From Salminus brasiliensis (lineage: Eukaryota > Chordata > Actinopteri > Characiformes > Bryconidae), in assembly GCF_030463535.1 (NCBI RefSeq), contig NC_132881.1, forward strand, positions 4,494,026 to 4,558,025: a stretch of 64,000 bases of DNA. The letters are read 5' to 3'. Made by a program: the position numbers and the translations under genes. Below are positions 326 to 49,680 of the stretch, in pieces; position 1 is the stretch's first letter, and each line of letters opens with the position of its first letter. A model generated the notes under the pieces. The model did not search any database. It had not been told where the DNA came from and was given only the letters and a program-made list of their open reading frames with translations.

Positions 326-1740
326 CGACACTACTGGTGAACATGGGTGTCTTGTTTGTATTCTTCTATTGGTCCATTCATCATGAAATTTGAACTCAAT
401 GCAAAGAACTACAGCCAAAACTGAAGACACGAGGTTTTTGCGTGACAGTGACAATATATTAGCTGCAGCTTCATTCCACCTCCATTGACCACTGACCCCC
501 ACTTCATTAAGGTTCTGCAGTATAATGGAGCTCGGGAGGGACAATTACCACCGACGTGACCTCGGGATACAGCGAAGGAGCCGTCTCAGCAGAGTCGTGC
601 ACATTTTAGCGGCGTGTTTACTTTCTATAGCATCTGGTAGTGGTGGTGCTTTGTGGCCCACTACAAATATTTGGCCATTAGGTTTCGGAGGAGGTGTGCG
701 GGGCAGGAGGAGAACCCAGCGCCGGCTACATGCAAATGAGACCAGCTGAAAGTTTTTTTTATCCCTTTTTTTTCTCCTGCATGTAATTTAAGATGGCATT
801 TAAGCCTCTTACCCCCGATCTTATCTGCTAAATGAATTCATCAGGTAATATTTCCCATTATTCAAAGGCATTATTTTATGTCAGAGAAGGTAATGGAATG
901 ATTACAGGGCCATGCTCACAAATTAGCGGCGAAAAAAAAGGAAAAAAGAAAACCGCGACTCGTCGTTCCTGTGAAAACGATAGCGGCTCGGAATTAATCG
1001 TTTTTTTCCCCTCTTTCTTTTAAACTCCTTTTAAAGTCTCGGGACGGTCGGTTGCAAAATTCGCCACAATATATACTAACAAGTCTTGGAGGCCAATTCA
1101 ATTTGCGATCTGCTTTCATCTTTAATGATACATATCTCCCTCCTGCCCCTATTTTGATTTGGCAGCCATGAAGGAAGAGTGTGTGCGGGGGTCTGGAATT
1201 AATATTTCAGATTTTTCATATGAAGGGAAAGCCGGAATGGTGTGAAGAAAGAAAGCGGGGAAGAAAGAGCTGAAAGAATGGCCACCTCCTATCACCTGGT
1301 TTAAAATCAGGCATGTAAGTGGAGTCTCATCCGGGCAGCCCCTTTCCGGCGGCCATGCCGCCTTTCCTCGCTCCGATTAAATCTGCTCCCGTCTGATCGG
1401 AGCGTGGAAGGCAGATTCGAGGCCCGAGCGCAGAAATTTCACACTAATCTACGAGAGGGTTTCCGACGGGCGAGAGATGAACGCGGTCCGCATAAAGAAA
1501 CAGAAAACAGATAATTGGCGGGAGGCTCCCGCTCCACAGACAGAGAAGAAATGTTTCAATTTAAATGTATGATTTTATCAGAATGTGATCCAGCTGTGGT
1601 GGTCTGCGATTAGACCACTTACACGCCGACGATAGCGAAGCACAAGGCCCACACAGGATGTACTTCAATGCACTGTATACTGTACACGCACTGTATCTGG
1701 CCGGACAGCGCCCAGCGACACTGCACGCTTTCTGCTAACG
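326..1740. other. Gene-free stretch; CNE-like from about 640 to 1640
   Basis: No convincing reading frame is present. About 340-420 carries a short dispersed motif (TCTATTGGTCCATTCAT) that recurs near 28045. From about 640 to 1640 the DNA is repeat-poor and mixed AT/GC, with several homeodomain-like ATTA/TAAT cores and no long homopolymers apart from short A and T runs. This texture resembles vertebrate conserved non-coding elements. Conservation itself cannot be seen from one sequence. Confidence 0.3.
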
Positions 1741-2071
1741 AACACTGGCCACTTTATTAGAAACACCCACCTTTCTGCTAACAAACACTGGCCACTTTAT
1801 TAGAAACACCCACCTCTCTGCTAACAAACACTGGCCACTTTATTAGAAACACCCACCTCTCTGCTAACAAACACTGGCCACTTTATTAGAAACACCCACC
1901 TTTCTGCTAACAAACACTGGCCACTTTATTAGAAACACCCACCTTTCTGCTAACAAACACTGGCCACTTTATTAGAAACATCTACCGTCTACTTTCATAC
2001 ACTGGCCACTTTATTAGAAACACCTACCGTCTACTTTCATACACTGGCCACTTTATTAGAAACCCCAACCT
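1741..2071 (+). repeat. Left arm of mirror-image array: 43/42-bp Tc1-TIR repeats
   Basis: Eight copies of GGCCACTTTATTAGAAACAC plus a linker recur at about 1744, 1787, 1830, 1873, 1916, 1959, 2001 and 2043. The first six have a 43-bp period. The inner units are 42 bp with a different linker (TCTACTTTCATAC). The core closely resembles the terminal inverted repeat of a common fish Tc1/mariner family that ends in CACTTTATTAG. The array faces an opposite-orientation array immediately to its right. Confidence 0.85.
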
Positions 2072-2634
2072 TCTACTTTCACATGTTTCTAATAAAGTGA
2101 CCAGCGAGTGAATATACATGGTAAGTGTTTCTAATAAAGTGGCCAGTCAATGGGAGAACAGGGTAGGTATTTCTAATAAAGTGGCCAGTGAGTGAACATA
2201 CAAGGTAGGTGTTTCTAATAAAGTGGCCAGCGAGTGAACATACAAGGTAGGTGTTTCTAATAAAGTGGCCAGCGAGTGAACATACAAGGTAGGTGTTTCT
2301 AATAAAGTGGCCAGCGAGTGAACATACAAGGTAGGTGTTTCTAATAAAGTGGCCAGCGAGTGAACATACAAGGTAGGTGTTTCTAATAAAGTGGCCAGCG
2401 AGTGAACATACAAGGTAGGTGTTTCTAATAAAGTGGCCAGCGAGTGGAAGTACAAGGTAGGTGTTTCTAATAAAGTGGCCAGCGAGTGAACATACAAGGT
2501 GGGTGTTTCTAATAAAGTGGCCAGCGAGTGGACATACAAGGTAGGTGTTTCTAATAAAGTGGCCAGCGAGTGGACATACAAGGTAGGTGTTTCTAATAAA
2601 GTGGCCAGTGAGTGAACATACAAGGTAGGTGTGC
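2072..2634 (-). repeat. Right arm of mirror-image array: 42-bp Tc1-TIR repeats
   Basis: About thirteen copies of a 42-bp unit containing GGTGTTTCTAATAAAGTGGC, with a CAGCGAGTGAACATACAAGG linker, run to the end of the array. The core is the reverse complement of the left-arm core, and the inner left units pair with it over most of their 42 bp. Because 42 is divisible by 3, the minus strand stays open for 163 codons as a 14-residue repeat. That is a by-product of the array and not a gene. Confidence 0.88.
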
Positions 2635-3429: not shown

Positions 3430-5170
3430 AAGCTTCGTATTCTGTTATTCAACATGTTACTCCAGTATGAATTATTCAGTAATTGCGATTTTCAACATTT
3501 GTGTTAGATTTGAATGAATTGTCTCTTAAACATCATTAACATCCAAAGTTTCAGGCTTCCTATTATGTTAAAATATGTATTTCTCCAGCATGACCAGTAT
3601 GAATTATTCGGTAATTATAATTTTCAGTTATATCATCTGGAATTTTGACACCCTAAAATTTAACTACTCCATAAGCAGTATGAATTATTCAGTAATTATA
3701 ATTTTCAGTTATATCATCTGGAATTTTGACACCCTAAAATGTAACTACTCCATAATCAGTATGAATTATTCAGTAATTACTATGGAACTAATATGTAATT
3801 TATGTTGCTATGAGAGTGCAATATTGAGTCTGGTAATTACTGAGTAGTAAAAAATATCTCATATAGAATAGAAGTTTATTGTAATTAAATCCAGTATGTA
3901 TTCAATGTTAGATACTGACTCATTTTTCCAGCTAGTTGTTCAATTGCTAACACCCTCCCAGTTGTATTCAGTGTTTGGAAACCCACTCATTATCAACAGA
4001 GCATTATTCAAGGGAACGTTACTGAGATGCTAGTGGTTTTGTTGCATTTCCAGTATGTATTAATGGTAAACACCTCTCCCATTACTAACACTGTATTATT
4101 AGTTTTTCAATTGCTAACCCTCTTACTTTCATCCAGGATGTATTGGAATTTAACATCTTAGCTATTATGAACACTGCATTATTCCCGGAGGATGCTTTCC
4201 AGTATGTATTGAGGGTTACTAGCTCTCCCATGACTAATAATGGATTATTAGTTTTCCACTTGCTAATCGTCTTTGAACCTTCTTGATGATGAGGAATTTA
4301 GCTAGTCAACCATTATCAATGCTGCATTAGCCCGGGGATGTTAGTGGTTTTGTTGCTTACACATTTCCAGTATGTATTGACTGTTGCTAGCTCTTCTATG
4401 ACTAACACTGCATTATTATTTTCCACTTGCTGAACCTCTTACCTTATTCAGGATGTATTAGATTGCAGCTACTCAACCTTTACCAATGCTGTATTATCCT
4501 AGGAGATGCTAGTAGTTCGGTTGCTAACACATTCCAGTATGTATTGAGAGTTACTGAATTGTATCTCTGAATTGTTAGTTTGCCTATTCCTTGCTAACCT
4601 TCATCCAGGATGTATTTGAATTTAGCACCACAACATTGTATTACTTCAATATTGTATTATCCCAAGCATGCTAATGGTTCTATTACTAACACACTTCCGG
4701 TATGTGTTGAGCCTTACTAGCTTTAGCATTACCTATAATGTATTATTCCTGTATTATAACGTGTTCCATTTCCTAACCTTCATCCAGTATGTACTGAAAA
4801 TATTGTATTATCCTAAGCATGCTAATGGTTCTACTACTAACACACTTCCGGTATGTGTTGAGCCTTCTTCTAGCTTTAGCATTACCTATAATGTATTATT
4901 CCTTGACAACATGTGTTCCTTTTCCTAACCGTCACCCAGTATGTATTGAAAATATTGTATTATCCCAAGCATGCTAATGGTTCTACTACTAACACACTTC
5001 CGGTATGTGTTGAGCCTCACTAGCTTTAGCATTACCTATAATGTATTATTCATGTGACAACATGTGTTCCATTTCCTAACCCTCATCCAGTATGTATTGA
5101 AAATATATATATTTTTCCAGAGGTGTTAATGGTTCCTCTGCGGGCACATTTCCGGTATGTATTCTAAGTC
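3430..5170. repeat. Decayed long-period tandem repeat field
   Basis: The motif CCAGTATGTATTGA and relatives (CCAGTATGAATTA, CCGGTATGTGTTGAGCC) recur every 70-150 bp. Two better-preserved subsets are visible. One is a pair of about 90-bp units at 3598-3770. The other is three units of about 151-153 bp beginning near 4664, 4815 and 4968 that share AAGCATGCTAATGGTTC. The CCAGTATGTA core also heads the 75-bp units at 5870-8400, so this looks like the older part of one repeat field. Confidence 0.65.
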
Positions 5171-5869
5171 GGAATATGATGTATATTGGATAAACAAACA
5201 TACTAATGGGAATAAATGCCTAATGGCATGGTGGAATATACAGAGTAGACTTATTTTTGCCCATAAAATCATCCTCAGTGTCTTTTTATCATTGAATGTC
5301 AGTGCTAGTTTGCCCGTACCCTCAACTTCTAACGCCTCCCCTGCTTATCCTAATAACGGTGCTAGTTGACTTCAAACAGCATGTATGAATTAAAACGTCA
5401 TGCTGGCAAACCATTAAAGTATAATGGCTCAAAAACGGCTTCACATTACTGCCACGATAAGTAGTCCTGGCTGACAGGTGAGTCCGCCAAATAAATAGTT
5501 GAAAGTGGCGTGATGGAATTATCCAGTGAGAACATGTGCCATTAAAATGTATGACCCCCCATGAGATGCCTCCTCTCGCACAATTACAAATTAGCCACAC
5601 TGTCACGTTCAGTGCCGCGCTCCACCAGCAGATCCACAACTCAGCGCCCTCGTGCTGGAGGAATACGTAAGCTGGAGAATGAGAAGGTGTATAATGGGAG
5701 AGCGGCTGCATGGAGCCTTTGCTGGAGCTGTACTGGGTTAATGGTGAGGCCTTTTCCAGCAGGACATGCCCACATATAAGCAGTTAAGTGAGGTGTCTCC
5801 TCAAAGGCCTTAACATATTCAAAGATATATAATATCTACTTCAGGGGCTAGGGTTAGAAGGCCATTAGT
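5171..5869. other. Unassigned spacer between repeat fields
   Basis: No gene or clear repeat is seen. A 129-codon minus-strand frame at 5322-5711 has no recognisable domain, and its composition is that of non-coding DNA. Confidence 0.5.
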
Positions 5870-8400
5870 CGGTATGTATTCTTTCAGTATAACTTTCAGT
5901 ATGTATGCAACGTTTTCAACACACATGAAAAACATTCCATTATTCCAGGGTATGCTAACACACATCCAGTATGTACTGAATATCAGAAGCGCAACAGTTA
6001 GCAACATTGTAGAAACTTGTGTCCCATTTTCATACCCTCATCCAGTATGTACTGACATATAGCAGCACACCCACAACACTGTATTATGCCTGTGATGCAA
6101 ACAAACATCCAGTATGTACTAAAAGTTAGAAACTCAACAGTTGGAGATGCTGGTGATTCAGTTGCTCAAACACTTTCAGTATGTATTTCAGTGTTTTTAG
6201 TATGTTTCTGTTTATTTTATCACACATTAAAAACATTGAATTTTTCCGAGGAATGTTAACACACATCCAGTATGTACTGAATTAATGTCAGAAACCAACA
6301 GTTAGCAACATTATAGAAACTTTAATTTTCGAACCCTCATCCAGTATGTACTGACAAAGTCAGAAACCCAACAGTTAGTAACATTATAGAAACTTCCACT
6401 TTCGAACCCTCATTCAGTATGTACTGAATTAATGTCAGAAACCCAACAGTTAGCAACATTATAGAAACTTCCACTTTCGAACCCTCATTCAGTATGTACT
6501 GAATTAATGTCAGAAACCCAACAGTTAGCAACATTATAGAAACTTCCACTTTCGAACCCTCATTCAGTATGTACTGAATTAATGTCAGAAACCCAACAGT
6601 TAGCAACATTATAGAAACTTTAATTTTCGAACCCTCATCCAGTATGTACTGACAAAGTCAGAAACCCAACATTTAGCAACATTATAGAAACTTCCAATTT
6701 TCGAACCCTCATCCAGTATCTACTGAATTAATGTCAGAAACCCAACAGTTAGCAACATTATAGAAACTTTAATTTTCAAACCCTCATCCAGTATGTACTG
6801 ACAAAGTCAGAAACCCAACAGTTAGCAACATTATAGAAACTTCCATTTTCGAATCCTCATCCAGTATGTACTGAATTAATGTCAGAAACCCAACATTTAG
6901 CAACATTATAGAAACTTCCATTTTCGAACCCTCATCCAGTATGTACTGAATTAATGTCAGAAACCAACAGTTAGCAACATTATAGAAACTTTAATTTTCG
7001 AACCCTCATCCAGTATGTACTGAATTAATGTCAGAAACCCAACAGTTAGCAACATTATAGAAACTTCCACTTTCTAACCCTCATCCAGTATGTACTGAAT
7101 TAATGTCAGAAACCCAACATTTAGCAACATTATAGAAACTTTAATTTTCGAACCCTCATCCAGTATGTACTGAATTAATGTCAGAAACCCAACAGTTAGC
7201 AACATTATAGAAACTTTAATTTTCGAACCCTCATCCAGTATGTACTGAATTAATGTCAGAAACCCAACAGTTAGCAACATTATAGAAACTTTAATTTTCG
7301 AACCCTCATCCAGTATGTACTGACAAAGTCAGAAACCCAACATTTAGCAACATTATAGAAACTTCCAATTTTCGAACCCTCATCCAGTATCTACTGAATT
7401 AATGTCAGAAACCCAACAGTTAGCAACATTATAGAAACTTTAATTTTCAAACCCTCATCCAGTATGTACTGACAAAGTCAGAAACCCAACAGTTAGCAAC
7501 ATTATAGAAACTTCCATTTTCGAATCCTCATCCAGTATGTACTGAATTAATGTCAGAAACCCAACATTTAGCAACATTATAGAAACTTCCATTTTCGAAC
7601 CCTCATCCAGTATGTACTGAATTAATGTCAGAAACCAACAGTTAGCAACATTATAGAAACTTTAATTTTCGAACCCTCATCCAGTATGTACTGAATTAAT
7701 GTCAGAAACCCAACAGTTAGCAACATTATAGAAACTTCCACTTTCTAACCCTCATCCAGTATGTACTGAATTAATGTCAGAAACCCAACATTTAGCAACA
7801 TTATAGAAACTTTAATTTTCGAACCCTCATCCAGTATGTACTGAATTAATGTCAGAAACCCAACAGTTAGCAACATTATAGAAACTTTAATTTTCGAACC
7901 CTCATCCAGTATGTACTGAATTAATGTCAGAAACCCAACAGTTAGCAACATTATAGAAACTTCCACTTTCTAACCCTCATCCAGTATGTACTGAATTAAT
8001 GTCAGAAACCCAACAGTTAGCAACATTATAGAAACTTTAATTTTCGAACCCTCATCCAGTATGTACTGAATTAATGTCAGAAACCCAACAGTTAGCAACA
8101 TTATAGAAACTTTAATTTTCGAACCCTCATCCAGTATGTACTGAATTAATGTCAGAAACCCAACAGTTAGCAACATTATAGAAACTTCCATTTTCGAACC
8201 CTCATCCAGTATGTACTGACAAAGTTAGAAACCCAACAGTTAGCAACATTATAGAAACTTCCATTTTCGAACCCTCATCCAGTATGTACTGACAAAGTTA
8301 GAAACCCAACAGTTAGCAACATTATAGAAACTTTAATTTTCGAACCCTCATCCAGTATGTACTGACAAAGTTAGAAACCCAACAGTTAGCAACACTGTGT
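5870..8400. repeat. 75-bp satellite array with higher-order repeat
   Basis: Units of the form CCAGTATGTACTGAATTAAT, then GTCAGAAACCCAACAGTTAG and a tail ending CGAACCCTCAT, repeat with a period near 75 bp. Some units carry the shorter CTGACAAAG variant. Divergent copies occupy about 5870-6340 and tight copies about 6340-8390. The minus strand reads as a 25-residue repeat because 75 is divisible by 3. The array ends abruptly at about 8395, where GTGTCGCTCTCGGGACGC interrupts the unit. Confidence 0.9.
6611..7952. repeat. 671-bp higher-order tandem duplication inside the 75-bp array
   Basis: A block of about nine units starting near 6611 is repeated at an offset of 671 bp. The rare variants CCAGTATCTACTG (6713 and 7384), TTCAAACCC, GAATCCTCAT and CAACATTTAG recur in the same order. 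No difference was seen in the stretches compared by eye. This implies a recent unequal exchange. Exact block edges are approximate. Confidence 0.82.
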
Positions 8401-12639: not shown

Positions 12640-13275
12640 TCGAGTGGTTGTCGGAAGATCCGTCAACGAAGCATGGAGATGGGAGATCGTAGGATATCCC
12701 AAAACAATGACAATGAGTCGTCCACAGACACTGCGAAATACCAAGCGAAGAGCCGCCAATGAAGCATGGAGATGGGAGATTGTAAGATATCCCAAAACAA
12801 CGACATTGAGTTGTTGCCGAAACTGCAAGATACCAAGGGAAGATCCGCCAACGAAGCATGGAGATAAAAGATCGTAGGAGATACCGAAACGACGTCAATA
12901 AGTCGTAAACAAACACTACGAAATACTAAGCGAAGATCCATCAACGAAGCATGGAGATGGGAGATTGTAAGATATCCCAAAACAACGACATTGAGTAGTT
13001 GCCGAAACTGCAAGATACCAAGGGAAGATCCATCAACGAAGCATGGAGATAAAAGATCGTAGGAGATACCGAAACAACGTCAATAAGTCGTAAACAAACA
13101 CTACGAAATACTAAGCGAAGATCCGCCAACGAAGCATGGAGATAAAAGATTGTAGGATATCCCAAAACAACGTCAATAAGTCGTAAACAAACACTACGAA
13201 ATACTAAGCGAAGATCCGCCCATAAAGCATGGAGATGGGAGATTGTAGGATATCCCAAAACAATGACAATGAATC
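12640..13275. repeat. 93-bp minisatellite array, seven units
   Basis: GCATGGAGAT recurs at 12671, 12764, 12856, 12949, 13041, 13134 and 13227, spacing 92-93 bp. Two linker types appear in a partly ordered pattern. One contains CGACATTGAGT and CGAAACTGCAAGATACCAAG. The other contains GTCAATAAGTCGTAAACAAA and CTACGAAATACTAAGCG. Long frames on both strands come from the period being a multiple of three and are not genes. Confidence 0.9.
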
Positions 13276-13278
13276 GTA

Positions 13279-13330
13279 AAACAAACACTGCGAATATATA
13301 TATATATATATATATTCGCAGTGTTTGTTT
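13279..13330. repeat. Perfect 52-bp palindrome at the array end
   Basis: AAACAAACACTGCG at 13279-13292 and its exact reverse complement at 13317-13330 flank a (TA)n core that is itself self-complementary. The outer arms match the linker of the adjacent 93-bp array, so the array's last unit is followed by an inverted piece of itself. It can extrude as a cruciform. Confidence 0.88.
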
Positions 13331-39525: not shown

Positions 39526-40700
39526 CAACCTTCCCCTTTCCCATTCTGCTCTAAATGTTCGTTTTGAGTTCACTCGCACTGTTTTTCTCCCTAATTAAAT
39601 CTGGTCCACATTAGCGCGTGCCTGCGTTCAGTTCCCAGAATTAACTGGGTTAATCAGCAGCCTCTCCTTTCTTCCATGGAGGTATGGAGCAGAGGAAGAG
39701 AAAGGAAAGATTAGAGGCCTAATGCAATGTACAGGATAATGTGCAATAGGATTTGCCTGAGCAAAATGAAATTTGTTGGCTGTAAGGAGGTTTGAGCAGG
39801 CGTAAACGAGGAGTTTAGCACTGGGTGAGTGTGTAAGGTGTGTGTGTGCATGTTTGCACAATAGTGATTGTGTGTAAAGCTGGCCTTTTACGCATGATTC
39901 AACGGGAACCCTAAGATTAAAATAAATGAAAAAAAGAAGACTTTAAATATTCAGGAGTAATTGTATATTTAAAATCAGGAGCGTTTTCTGCAGGGCAGAT
40001 TCAGCCTCATTTCTACAGATTCATTCGCCTTATCTTTGCATGGCATATCAGTTTCAGGCACTGTGGCTGGGACACAACCTGTCTGCCGTCTAGCTTGTTG
40101 CCATGCAAAGGTCAGAGACAACAGCGCCTTTAAGCGCCTCATATTTTGCCGTGCAGAGTGTGATCACTTACGTTCACTGAGGCTTAGTGTGGAAAGGCCT
40201 TTAGACTGATGGCACGGAAGCTGTGAACACCGTCTGTTAGTCCATGCAGTGTTTCTGTGCTTTCAGACACCGAGGCAGAAGATGTGGGTGAAATGTGGAG
40301 GGCTTTTTGAGGACATCTAGACTCATTAGGAAATCTCTTGCAGCATCAGTGAGGAAATGGCCAACCGAACAATGCAAGGTTAGAAAGCGCTGCTCTCAGA
40401 AGGGTGACGGTTTATCCTGACATCTGTAGAAAACACAGAATTGTATAACAAATATATCATGCTATAGATTTGTTCTTAGCCTATATAACAAAATAGGGTG
40501 CAATATGAGCCAAAGTGTATTAAGTATATATCTAATCAGTATTATGTGGATTACGTTTATACATGATCAGCATGTATAACCTAAAAATATCATTTCCTCT
40601 CCAGTCTGTATAGCCTGTATATTATCATTTATCTGCACGGTAAGTCTGTTTTCCCACAAAACCCAGGACTTATACATAAACTCTCCAAGCACGTAATGAC
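39526..40700. other. Intergenic DNA downstream of fam204a
   Basis: No gene seen. AT-rich with no clear mobile element. An ordinary spacer after the candidate polyadenylation sites. Confidence 0.5.
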
Positions 40701-41040
40701 TAGGGCCTCCTTTTCCTTTTAAAACAGCTTCTACCAAAAAAACAGGCCAAGAAAACCTTTTCCCCACACCATTACACCACCTCCACCAGCCCAAGGCTGA
40801 CCCCATTATGTGTGTGCCTTAATCAGACCATGCTACATTTCTGCAGTCGTCAACTGTAGCCGCTGCAGCCTCAGCCTTCTGTTCTTGGCTGACAGAAGTG
40901 AAACCTGCCGTGGGTTTGGAACCTGCTTAGGGTTGGACGTGGTGGTGTGTAGTCTGAGCTGCTTTTCTGCTCACCACAGTTGTACAGAGTGGTTATCTGA
41001 GTTACCACACTGGTGTGGTTGGTGTGCCATCCCTCATTTA
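40700..41040 (-). mobile_element. Tc1/mariner fragment, minus strand, internally deleted
   Basis: Minus-strand reading near 40735-40805 gives GGCTGGTGGAGGTGGTGTAA then TGGTGTGGGG and TTTTCTTGGC, matching the catalytic-core DNA of the fish Tc1 family that ends in CACTTTATTAG. It is directly followed (40829-41040) by a 5'-transposase part: CTGCAGCCTCAGCCTTCTGT, TTCTTGGCTGACAGAAGTGA and TTTTCTGCTCACCACAGTTG. The parts between are missing, so it is dead. Confidence 0.72.
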
Positions 41041-42386
41041 AGACAACAGCGCAGATTAGCAAGTTCATGTTTTTGTGTTTGTCTGGTCGGGAGTGTTTTA
41101 GCCTGGACTGAAGCGGAGGTCATTTATCTATAGCAAAAACATCCTGTTTAATTCTAAGGGCCTATCAGGTCCGTATCGGAGCGGTATCGGTATCAGAGGA
41201 GGGAGGGGGGAAGAAAGGGTATTGTGCCTTCTCTATACATACAGAGATAAATGCATTCGCTTCACACCACACATGCTTTCCGTGGCGTCTCCGTTTAACA
41301 CCATCTTCCGTCTCGGCAGGAGTGAGGTCATCACTCACAGCTCTTGAGTCAGAATGCAGATAGACGGAGCCGGAGCTTCTGATTTATGCTCCGCTGGCCC
41401 GAGGCTCAGCTATCTGCAAATAGCAATTTTAGAGCTTTAAACTACCCACCCTGACAACAGCCGTTTGACAACTGTGGCACAAACTAGCCGGTGTAGCCCG
41501 GAGGCATGTGCTTGGCACTGGCGGTTCCAGAGACAGCTCGCTAAAGAGGTGTAAAAGAGAAGGAGAGCCAAGCTTTACCCAGTTGTCATCAAGACCATCT
41601 GCAACGTATCAGACAAGTGGCGCTTCTTGGCAGGACGGCGGGCCGGCGTGTCCCGCTCGCTCTCGCAAGGCGTCTTTCCGCAGAGAGATAATCTGAAGAA
41701 GTCCCGCTGATGGTTTGCTTTGATTAAAGCCATGAATGCGGCTAATGTGGATCTACGCCACCGCTTTAGAAAAAGCTGTCAGTTAGTGTATGTAAATGAG
41801 GTAATTAAACTCACTTAGCATTCTTTAATAAGAGGGTTATTTGGCAGCGCTTAGCACTGTTTTAGACTTTACTTTGATGACACATCTCAAGCGCTGTCAT
41901 AACATTGGATGCAAGTCACTGTTTGTTTTTGTTTTGTTTTTTTGGGGGGGGCTAATGTGTCACTTGTTTGTGGTGGGCAAACATCTCTGGGTGCACCGGT
42001 TCCAGCGCTGAGGCACCAACCTATGCAAACACGTGGGGTTTCGTACATCCCATCTGCCTCATTTTTGGACATAAACAGGAGAACTTTAAGGCTATGGCCA
42101 GATTTGGACAGACCTGACCCATCAGACCTGCACATTAAGTAGCACCGTGGATTTTGCCTTGAATGCATAAATAAATGATCCAGTTGGGAAGGTTGCTATT
42201 GGTTGGTATTTCACACATCTGACAGTGGCCTTAACAAAGGTCCTGCTGGTCTGTCTGGTGACCAGCATCAGCTTCCCTTGCTGTTTCAAGCAGCATTCAG
42301 ACCTCACTATACATGCTTCTACTGGTGACCAGTTTTGGTCACTTTATTTATTTATTTTTGTCCGACTTACTTTATTTTAGACCAGG
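41041..42386. other. Intergenic DNA between two Tc1 fragments
   Basis: No gene. About 41330-41470 and 41690-41880 are repeat-poor. The rest is unassigned. Confidence 0.45.
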
Positions 42387-42575
42387 CTACATTTCTGCAG
42401 TCGTCAACTGTAGCCACTGCAGCCTCAGCTTTCTGTTCTTGGCTGACAGAAGTGAAACCTGCCGTGGTCTTCTGCTGTTGAAGCTCATCTGCTTTAGGGT
42501 TGGACAAGGTGGTGTGTAGTCTGAGCTGCTTTTCTGCTCACCACAGTTGTCTGAGTTACCACACACCAACTGGAC
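42387..42575 (-). mobile_element. Second copy of the same Tc1 fragment
   Basis: Repeats 40829-41040 with few differences, starting GCTACATTTCTGCAGTCGTC. It keeps an internal part (GTCTTCTGCTGTTGAAGCTC) altered in the first copy, and lacks the piece around ACAGAGTGGTTATCTGAG. The copies are about 1.56 kb apart in direct orientation. Confidence 0.75.
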
Positions 42576-47492: not shown

Positions 47493-47532
47493 ACTGTAGT
47501 CACTGGTAGGAAAATTAGCCTGAAAATCTGCG

Positions 47533-48200
47533 TATCTGGACAGTAAGTGTTTATCTCCTCAGTAAAACACTGATATTCCTACAGAAAGTGGTGGTGGTGG
47601 TGGTTCTCCATCACTGTGTTCATCATCAGAACATCTCCAAAGTTCTCCTCTCTCATGGAGTCTAGTATTATTTAGAGTTCTCCTCAGATCAACACCTGGT
47701 TTGGTGGTAAATTAGGGCTTAATGATGGTAAATCAGGTGAGCTGCTGCTGCTGCTGCTGATGGAGTTGAACCGATCCTCCATGCTGTGCTGAAAAAAGAG
47801 AAACAAGAGCTTCTCATTCTGAAGAAATAAAGTAGTGAGATCTTGTCGGTGAGCTAGTCTGAAGAACAGAGCTCGGTTCCTCCAGGTTTCTCCTGGACGC
47901 CCCCCAGTCCAGCCAGCACAGCGTGGAGGATGTGTTCAATCAACTCCAGCAGCAGCAGCAGCAGCAGCTCACCTGATTTACCATCATTAAGCCCTGATTT
48001 ACCACCAAACCAGGTGTTGATCTGAGGAGAACTCTAAATAACACTAGACTCCATGAGAGAGGAGAACTTTGGAGATGTTCTAATGATGAACACAGTGATG
48101 GAGAACCACCACTACCACTTTCTGTAGGAATGTTATTAATATTAGTGTTTATTCTAATATCAGTGATTTACTGAGGAGATAAACACTTACTGTCCAGATA
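47533..48200. mobile_element. Foldback element with arms of about 260-290 bp
   Basis: Left end TATCTGGACAGTAAGTGTTT and right end AAACACTTACTGTCCAGATA are exact inverted repeats. Pairing continues inward through GGTTCTCCATCACTGTGTTC, TCTCATGGAGTCTAGTATTA and a (CTG)n/(CAG)n tract to about 47793 and 47913, with a few mismatches and one indel region. The loop of about 120 bp has no coding capacity. No clear target-site duplication was identified, so the superfamily is open. Confidence 0.88.
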
Positions 48201-49680
48201 AGCAGCTTTTGACTAAAATATCCGCACAGTACTGTACTCGTCACTGTCATATTAAACCCAAGGCTTTTATTTAGTCTTTATTTCCCCACATCATTTAAAC
48301 ACCGTAAAAGCAGCGAGAGCGCTACAGCACTACAGCAGTCATACGTGGTGCCTCAGTCTCACGCTTGCAGTTTGAACGGGGACGGCGAGTCTCCTGGGCT
48401 CTTGGCGTGCTTCAGATCGAATTATGAACCTATGTTATTTCAAATTTATTTTCATTAATTAAAGTTGAGGACGTCTTGATAAATTCCAATACCCGGGTCG
48501 CCAAGAATCAGACAGGCGAAATTCCCAGTGTATCTCACTTCAATTAGTTACATTTAAAACCCTCTCCCAAGTTTTTTCCTCGAACCATTCAACTCACTCC
48601 GAGCTGCAGGAACGAGGTCAAGCAGGCGACGCGCTCGGCAATCTGATGAAAAACAAGCGGCGTCTCCGAATAATTTCAGAGTTGAAACGTATGTACGCCA
48701 TATACTGGCTTGATGGGCGTGTTGCATCAGATTCAGATAGAAAAACTGTGTTTTGCTTGGAGAGCACTTTTAAATACACTGCTTATTAGCCTCTAAAAAT
48801 AACTGCAGAGAAGCGAATCACGGAAATGAGCTTCCAATTAAAACTATGGCAACTTTTAAATGAAATAAATGTTCCCAAGAACAAATATGCTGAATACGCA
48901 CTCATAATGCTTTCTCATCTGAAAGGAGCAAAGACATAACGCGCTTTTATCTGGACGTGTTATTAATTAATCCAATGAATATTTCATTTTCTGGTCATAG
49001 AGACGTTGCAGTATGTTTAAGGAGAATCGTCCTCAAGTTCTTCGTTAGGCCTCAGCTATGTTTGCCACCTCATTTATTGCTGCATTACAACCTGCTGGTG
49101 ATTCTGTTTGTCCTGCAGCTGTATTGCAAGGCTCCCAGGCTCCCAAATGGACCTTAGGCTGGACGTATGATCTTATAGATGTTTGAAACCAATGGAGAAT
49201 AATGGTTTGGTGTGGAATGCTCCATCCTAGAAAGCTTTCTGGGTCAGAAATGTTCACAGTGGCAGTGAATGCAACCAGCCGTCTGAAAAGTGTAACGCCT
49301 CTGAAAGCTGCACTATTAAAACACACGGTTCTTCAGTGGATCTTTCTGACCACTCAGAGAACCATTTCAAAGCTTTAATAGTTCTGATATATGATGGAAG
49401 ACTTTTGTAGGTGCTTCTATAAAGCATCATATAGGCTTCCATGATTAGTGTTACTATGTGTGCTCACAGCCTTGTTACCTGATACCTGAGGTATTGATTT
49501 TTGTCAGGCACATATATTTAAACTAGTTTAAGTGGCGGAAGAGTACAAGCAGGCGCTGGCAGGCAGAAAAGACCCCCAATAAAACCTGTTTTTTAGATTT
49601 AGTACTATTTATCATCATCAACGTTACATATGAAACTCAGATGATGCATGTAGATTTACTGATGGCTTTGAATAGTAAGT
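48201..49680. other. Intergenic DNA with CNE-like part at about 48440-48960
   Basis: About 48440-48960 is repeat-poor with phrases such as TTCATTAATTAAAGTTGAGG and CACTTCAATTAGTTACATTT. No gene in the rest. Confidence 0.38.

Follow-up and report, generated by a model that had tools for sequence, protein, structure and literature searches.

A tandem array that reverses its direction is located at positions 1728 to 2632 of the analysed stretch of 64 kb (referred to as the window), which is free of N. Its left part (1728-2072, plus strand) comprises 8 units with the core GGCCACTTTATTAGAAACAC at a period of 43 (8.1 copies), as obtained from tandem-repeat and core searches, and its right part (2084-2632, minus strand) comprises 13 units with the same core on the opposite strand at a period of 42 (13.1 copies). 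When up to three mismatches were allowed, the core gave 21 matches in the window, 8 on the plus strand at 1747-2065 and 13 on the minus strand at 2083-2606, and none outside the two arrays; in 100 shuffles of the window no match was obtained. The locus thus presents two inverted ends facing each other, as in a MITE or foldback element (8 '>' followed by 13 '<', where '>' and '<' denote units on the plus and the minus strand), and the mirror-image order given in the preliminary description was confirmed. The junction, initially placed near 2072-2085, was mapped to 2066-2083 (C4:4496074-4496124 in genome coordinates), where one left-type spacer meets the first core of the right array at its inner side. 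A further, degenerate unit on the minus strand was read by eye at 2628-2654. The originally proposed unit length of 42 bp applies to the right array and to the last two left units, but not to the outer left units, which follow each other in five steps of 43 bp.

Folding of the mirror stretch as single-stranded DNA was predicted at -243 kcal/mol, compared to -104 for 20 shuffles (z -28). The one-way array L032, taken at equal length, gave -61 versus -59 in its shuffles (z -0.3), of which 6 of 20 were at least as stable. A strong foldback as suggested earlier is therefore predicted, but instead of one giant hairpin it would form a core-by-core ladder of stems with many unpaired spacers. The predicted effect of the mirror locus is structural, namely foldback DNA and local instability, and no present function is claimed for it.

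The window's own genome comprises 1.066 Gb in 103 contigs, and in it the unit forms a dispersed satellite. Head-to-tail pairs of a 15-mer at a distance of 12-42 bp amounted to 9,312 + 10,163 = 19,475, compared to 0 for the reversed control, and head-to-tail arrays of one unit, as expected of a satellite, were present at many loci. The common unit is TGGCCACTTTATTAGAAACACCTACCTTGTGCTTCCACTCAC. Eighteen clusters were read, all of them on contig C1 and representing all of the first 100 places listed. Twelve are one-way arrays with up to 67 units and four consist of a single unit, three of these being copies of one 10-kb duplication. L015 harbors 16 '>' units followed by about 185 bp and one degenerate '<', and L022 contains 29 '<' and 14 '>' units 1.6 kb apart. 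The middle of L015 was considered as a transposase remnant and rejected, being not significantly similar to Tc1 fossils. No shared carrier was found around the arrays, and sharing of flanks at a constant place was restricted to the three copies of one duplication. At 13 of the 14 testable loci (12 independent; 4 of the 14 are single units), no opposite tip was present over distances of up to 1 kb. The outer edges of the arrays are not sharply defined, differ between loci and are not fixed at the tip, and no target duplication was identified at the window. Two translated satellite units were matched by eye inside a Serrasalmus rhombeus protein, and the unit therefore probably occurs in a characiform fish as well. 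Searches of prokaryote and viral collections with the core or the transposase gave nothing, or phage coding sequence with a chance match to the core. At L081 (C11:1138607), an array of the satellite core with a period of 32 bp lies beside one opposed unit.

Pieces of a Tc1-like transposase relic are present on the minus strand of the window at 40693-41011 (E 2e-6) and 42379-42548 (E 1e-9). They were detected with a fish Tc1 transposase as query, which gave matches of 95% to P0002 and of at least 93% to fish-named proteins. The relic at 42379-42548 shows 87% DNA identity to the one at 40.8-41.0 kb and matches Pfam PF01498 below the cut-off of that family. Thirteen tip-like bases beside it (42336-42348) were set aside (E about 6). 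Among the 117 of 32,795 candidates in the genome that were scored, the closest copies of the P0002 family (L035-L042) are 50-62% identical and carry stops in eight of eight cases. The two best matches of this scored set, L033 and L034, are intact, but they are 45% identical and have no tip within 2 mismatches. Tip-like matches are present at L038, in the wrong orientation, and at L043, where the gene at a distance of about 1 kb is 35% identical. The arrays had been suggested to titrate Tc1 transposase; because the eight closest of the scored copies are broken, such titration is unlikely today, although an intact copy may exist elsewhere in the genome beyond these 117 of 32,795 candidates.

The preliminary description had proposed that the core derives from a Tc1-type terminal inverted repeat, and this resemblance was supported by the tails of transposase copies and by both ends of L040. 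Five of the copies L035-L042, all decayed, reach the C-terminus, and the 60 bases following it show similarity to the unit of the satellite, with the strand as expected. The tails scored 13, 14, 9, 12 and 10 against the unit, with shuffle means near 7, and gave single p values of 0.000 (L035), 0.002 (L037), 0.072 (L038), 0.006 (L040) and 0.038 (L042). Taken singly these values are modest, since random 60-mers from the window reach scores of 12 (99th percentile) to 16 (maximum) against the unit. The joint score of 58, with three clear and two weak tails, was reached by none of 500 shuffles, and it is the five tails taken together that make the core resemble a tip. L040 carries the core at each of its ends, at a distance of 1,112 bp; 15 consecutive bases in the core are common to the two ends, but only 19 of 34 overall. 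The sequence GGAACACC in L040 corresponds to GAAACACC in the satellite. Exact copies of the G-type 21-mer number 173 in the genome (33 + 140), many of them within one stretch of contig C6, versus 15,523 for the satellite-type 20-mer core. Judged from sequence, the core thus resembles the tip of a decayed Tc1-like family. Among the places listed, groups of G-type tips recur on one strand every ~35-60 kb at C6:29829429-30454569, as if a large segment had been tandemly duplicated.

Changes of direction were counted genome-wide with two patterns that both require exact 15-mers, which makes the counts lower bounds. Flips with the tips pointing outward, as at the window, were found 8 times at a gap of 0-30 and 24 times at a gap of 31-61, giving 29 after removal of 3 repeated ones, whereas tip-to-tip flips numbered 0 and 3, respectively, hence 3 in total, one of them in locus L064, which also has a tip-outward pair. 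Flips within 61 bp are rare, and their ratio corresponds to p 2.6e-6 in a sign test if all are independent. The arrays had been described as facing each other like transposon ends; this orientation holds at the window and is preferred 29 to 3 throughout the genome. On contigs C1-C29, 8 of 28 tip-outward flips lie less than 1 Mb from the contig start, versus 0.8 expected if uniform (flips alone counted). The array context was read for the eight tightest of the 29 tip-outward pairs, and long arrays on both sides were found only at the window. Of the other seven, four consist of one '>' facing 48, 14, 6 or 1 '<', two of one '>' embedded among '<', and one is complex. A tip-to-tip mirror is formed by L080, where 7 units and 10 units lie on either side of 47 bp. 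A second tip-outward flip on C4 (L064/L079, C4:4559355-4559456), situated 1.4 kb past the end of the window and 63 kb from the flip of the window itself, is palindromic, each arm measuring about 50 nt, and at L065, of 45 flanking bases beyond the satellite, 30 are inverted copies; at least these two flips, L064 and L065, have the appearance of local inverted duplications. At one listed convergent joint, C4:43235559, two spacers meet at a self-complementary GGCC, which is the form expected from a flip inside an array.

The polarity excess, the one-sided forms (one '>' facing 48, 14, 6 or 1 '<', and L015 with its lone degenerate '<') and the low similarity between the arms of the window favour an origin from two opposed ends that expanded separately. 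Compared to a flipped array or to the joining of two arrays, separate expansion of two opposed Tc1-remnant ends is the likeliest account, and we assign a probability of about 0.5 to the formation of the window locus from a small non-autonomous derivative of Tc1 whose two ends faced inward. Such a two-ended progenitor would have had each of its ends grown into a tandem array by slippage or unequal exchange, and its interior would have been lost. The earlier proposal that the ends of a MITE were amplified is retained for the Tc1-like core and the facing polarity; a MITE at the locus itself is no more than putative, given the variable edges, the opposite tips missing at 13 of 14 loci, the lack of an identified target duplication and the appearance of L064 and L065 as local inverted duplications. 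The two-ended origin is weakened because edges and opposite tips behave in this way and no carrier is shared, because mirrors of opposite polarity (L080, L022) and inverted duplications (L064, L065) occur, and because of the GGCC joint at C4:43235559, the middle of L015 that is unlike Tc1 fossils and the agreement of the L040 ends at only 19 of 34 positions.

Alternatively, snap-back template switching during replication might have inverted a one-way array, the arms of which were homogenised separately later on. The palindrome at L064, the inverted flank bases at L065 and the self-complementary convergent joint are in line with such an event, as is L080, whose arms are 5.8 edits apart: its '>' arm has the '<' arm of the same locus as closest match, although for the '<' arm L025 is closer. 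A flip should however produce both polarities, yet 29 to 3 were observed, and no inverted unique flank was present at the window among the 25 longest inverted repeats listed. Moreover, the arms of the window differ in period, spacer and unit type, and their mean spacer distance of 8.7 edits ranks 236 of 273 pairs from different loci (median 6.7), or 182 of 210 pairs in a smaller comparison set. A recent inverted duplication of one arm was rejected because most arrays from different loci resemble each other more than these arms do, and the same dissimilarity argues against the older flip, which we regard as rather doubtful for the window. Less probable still is that two separately arisen arrays were joined by insertion or deletion. 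The different periods and spacers of the arms would fit this, and at L022 arrays that differ in period oppose each other at a distance of 1.6 kb, but joining leaves the ratio of 29:3 unexplained, and a separation of 17 bp is improbable at a density of ~18 clusters per 3.8 Mb on C1. An assembly error is very improbable: although some other arrays (L021, L028, L031) meet stretches of N, the window has none, the differing unit types and periods show that neither arm is a misplaced copy of the other, and 28 other close tip-outward flips exist in the assembly.

It is conceivable, though tentative, that an undescribed foldback-like derivative of Tc1 exists, with expandable tandem arrays as its ends and the 29:3 excess of tip-outward flips as its genome-wide signature, and that the window is its fully two-armed member. 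If so, growth of end arrays would be a route from dying Tc1 elements to dispersed fish satellites. Through these observations, the tips of a decayed Tc1-like family are connected with a satellite that has nearly 20,000 tandem pairs in a single genome, and the orientation bias of 29 to 3 is a countable constraint that every explanation for the origin of satellites from transposon ends has to accommodate.

Expansion of terminal-inverted-repeat tandem repeats into satellite-like arrays was described for the Tetris foldback element and the TIR-220 satellite of Drosophila virilis (PMC4079207). The likeness lies in transposon-end repeats occurring as arrays, with at most 66 copies in Tetris versus 67 in the largest array read here. 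Tetris was assigned to Mutator by its authors, its unit measures ~220 bp, and it occurs in complete copies that show target duplications (PMC4079207), whereas the satellite described here has a 42 bp unit, a Tc1-like core and no complete element that was found. In Xenopus, the Xmix MITE and the Xstir satellite likewise combine a MITE and a tandem array with common sequence, a likeness drawn from review descriptions; these reviews give the source of Xstir as the TIR in the table of one, and as possibly internal MITE sequence in another. The Tc1/mariner MITE miDNA4 of Xenopus tropicalis, as described in reviews, is similar in its link to Tc1/mariner and in having single monomers as well as arrays, but there the MITE encloses the satellite, which is considered to have been captured, while the unit here contains the terminal repeat. 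The core sequence was not found in paper texts, and among the titles and abstract openings listed from openly licensed PMC papers there were general precedents, but no description of a fish satellite made of Tc1 tips. Satellites from transposon terminal repeats are already known, and the Tc1-like core in mirror form is a new member.

Other repeats are present in the window. The interval 3595-8394 holds some 4.8 kb of short, mutually related repeats centred on the motif CCAGTATGTA, and within this region a 75-bp unit with a higher-order period of 447 bp was found at 6264-8394. A tandem repeat with a period of 93 (185) and about 7 copies is located at 12654-13294. The inverted repeat at 47523-48210 has arms of 179 nt with 97% identity (47591-47769 and 47940-48118) and outer arms of 55 nt with 95% identity, and is by its sequence a putative foldback or MITE-like element.
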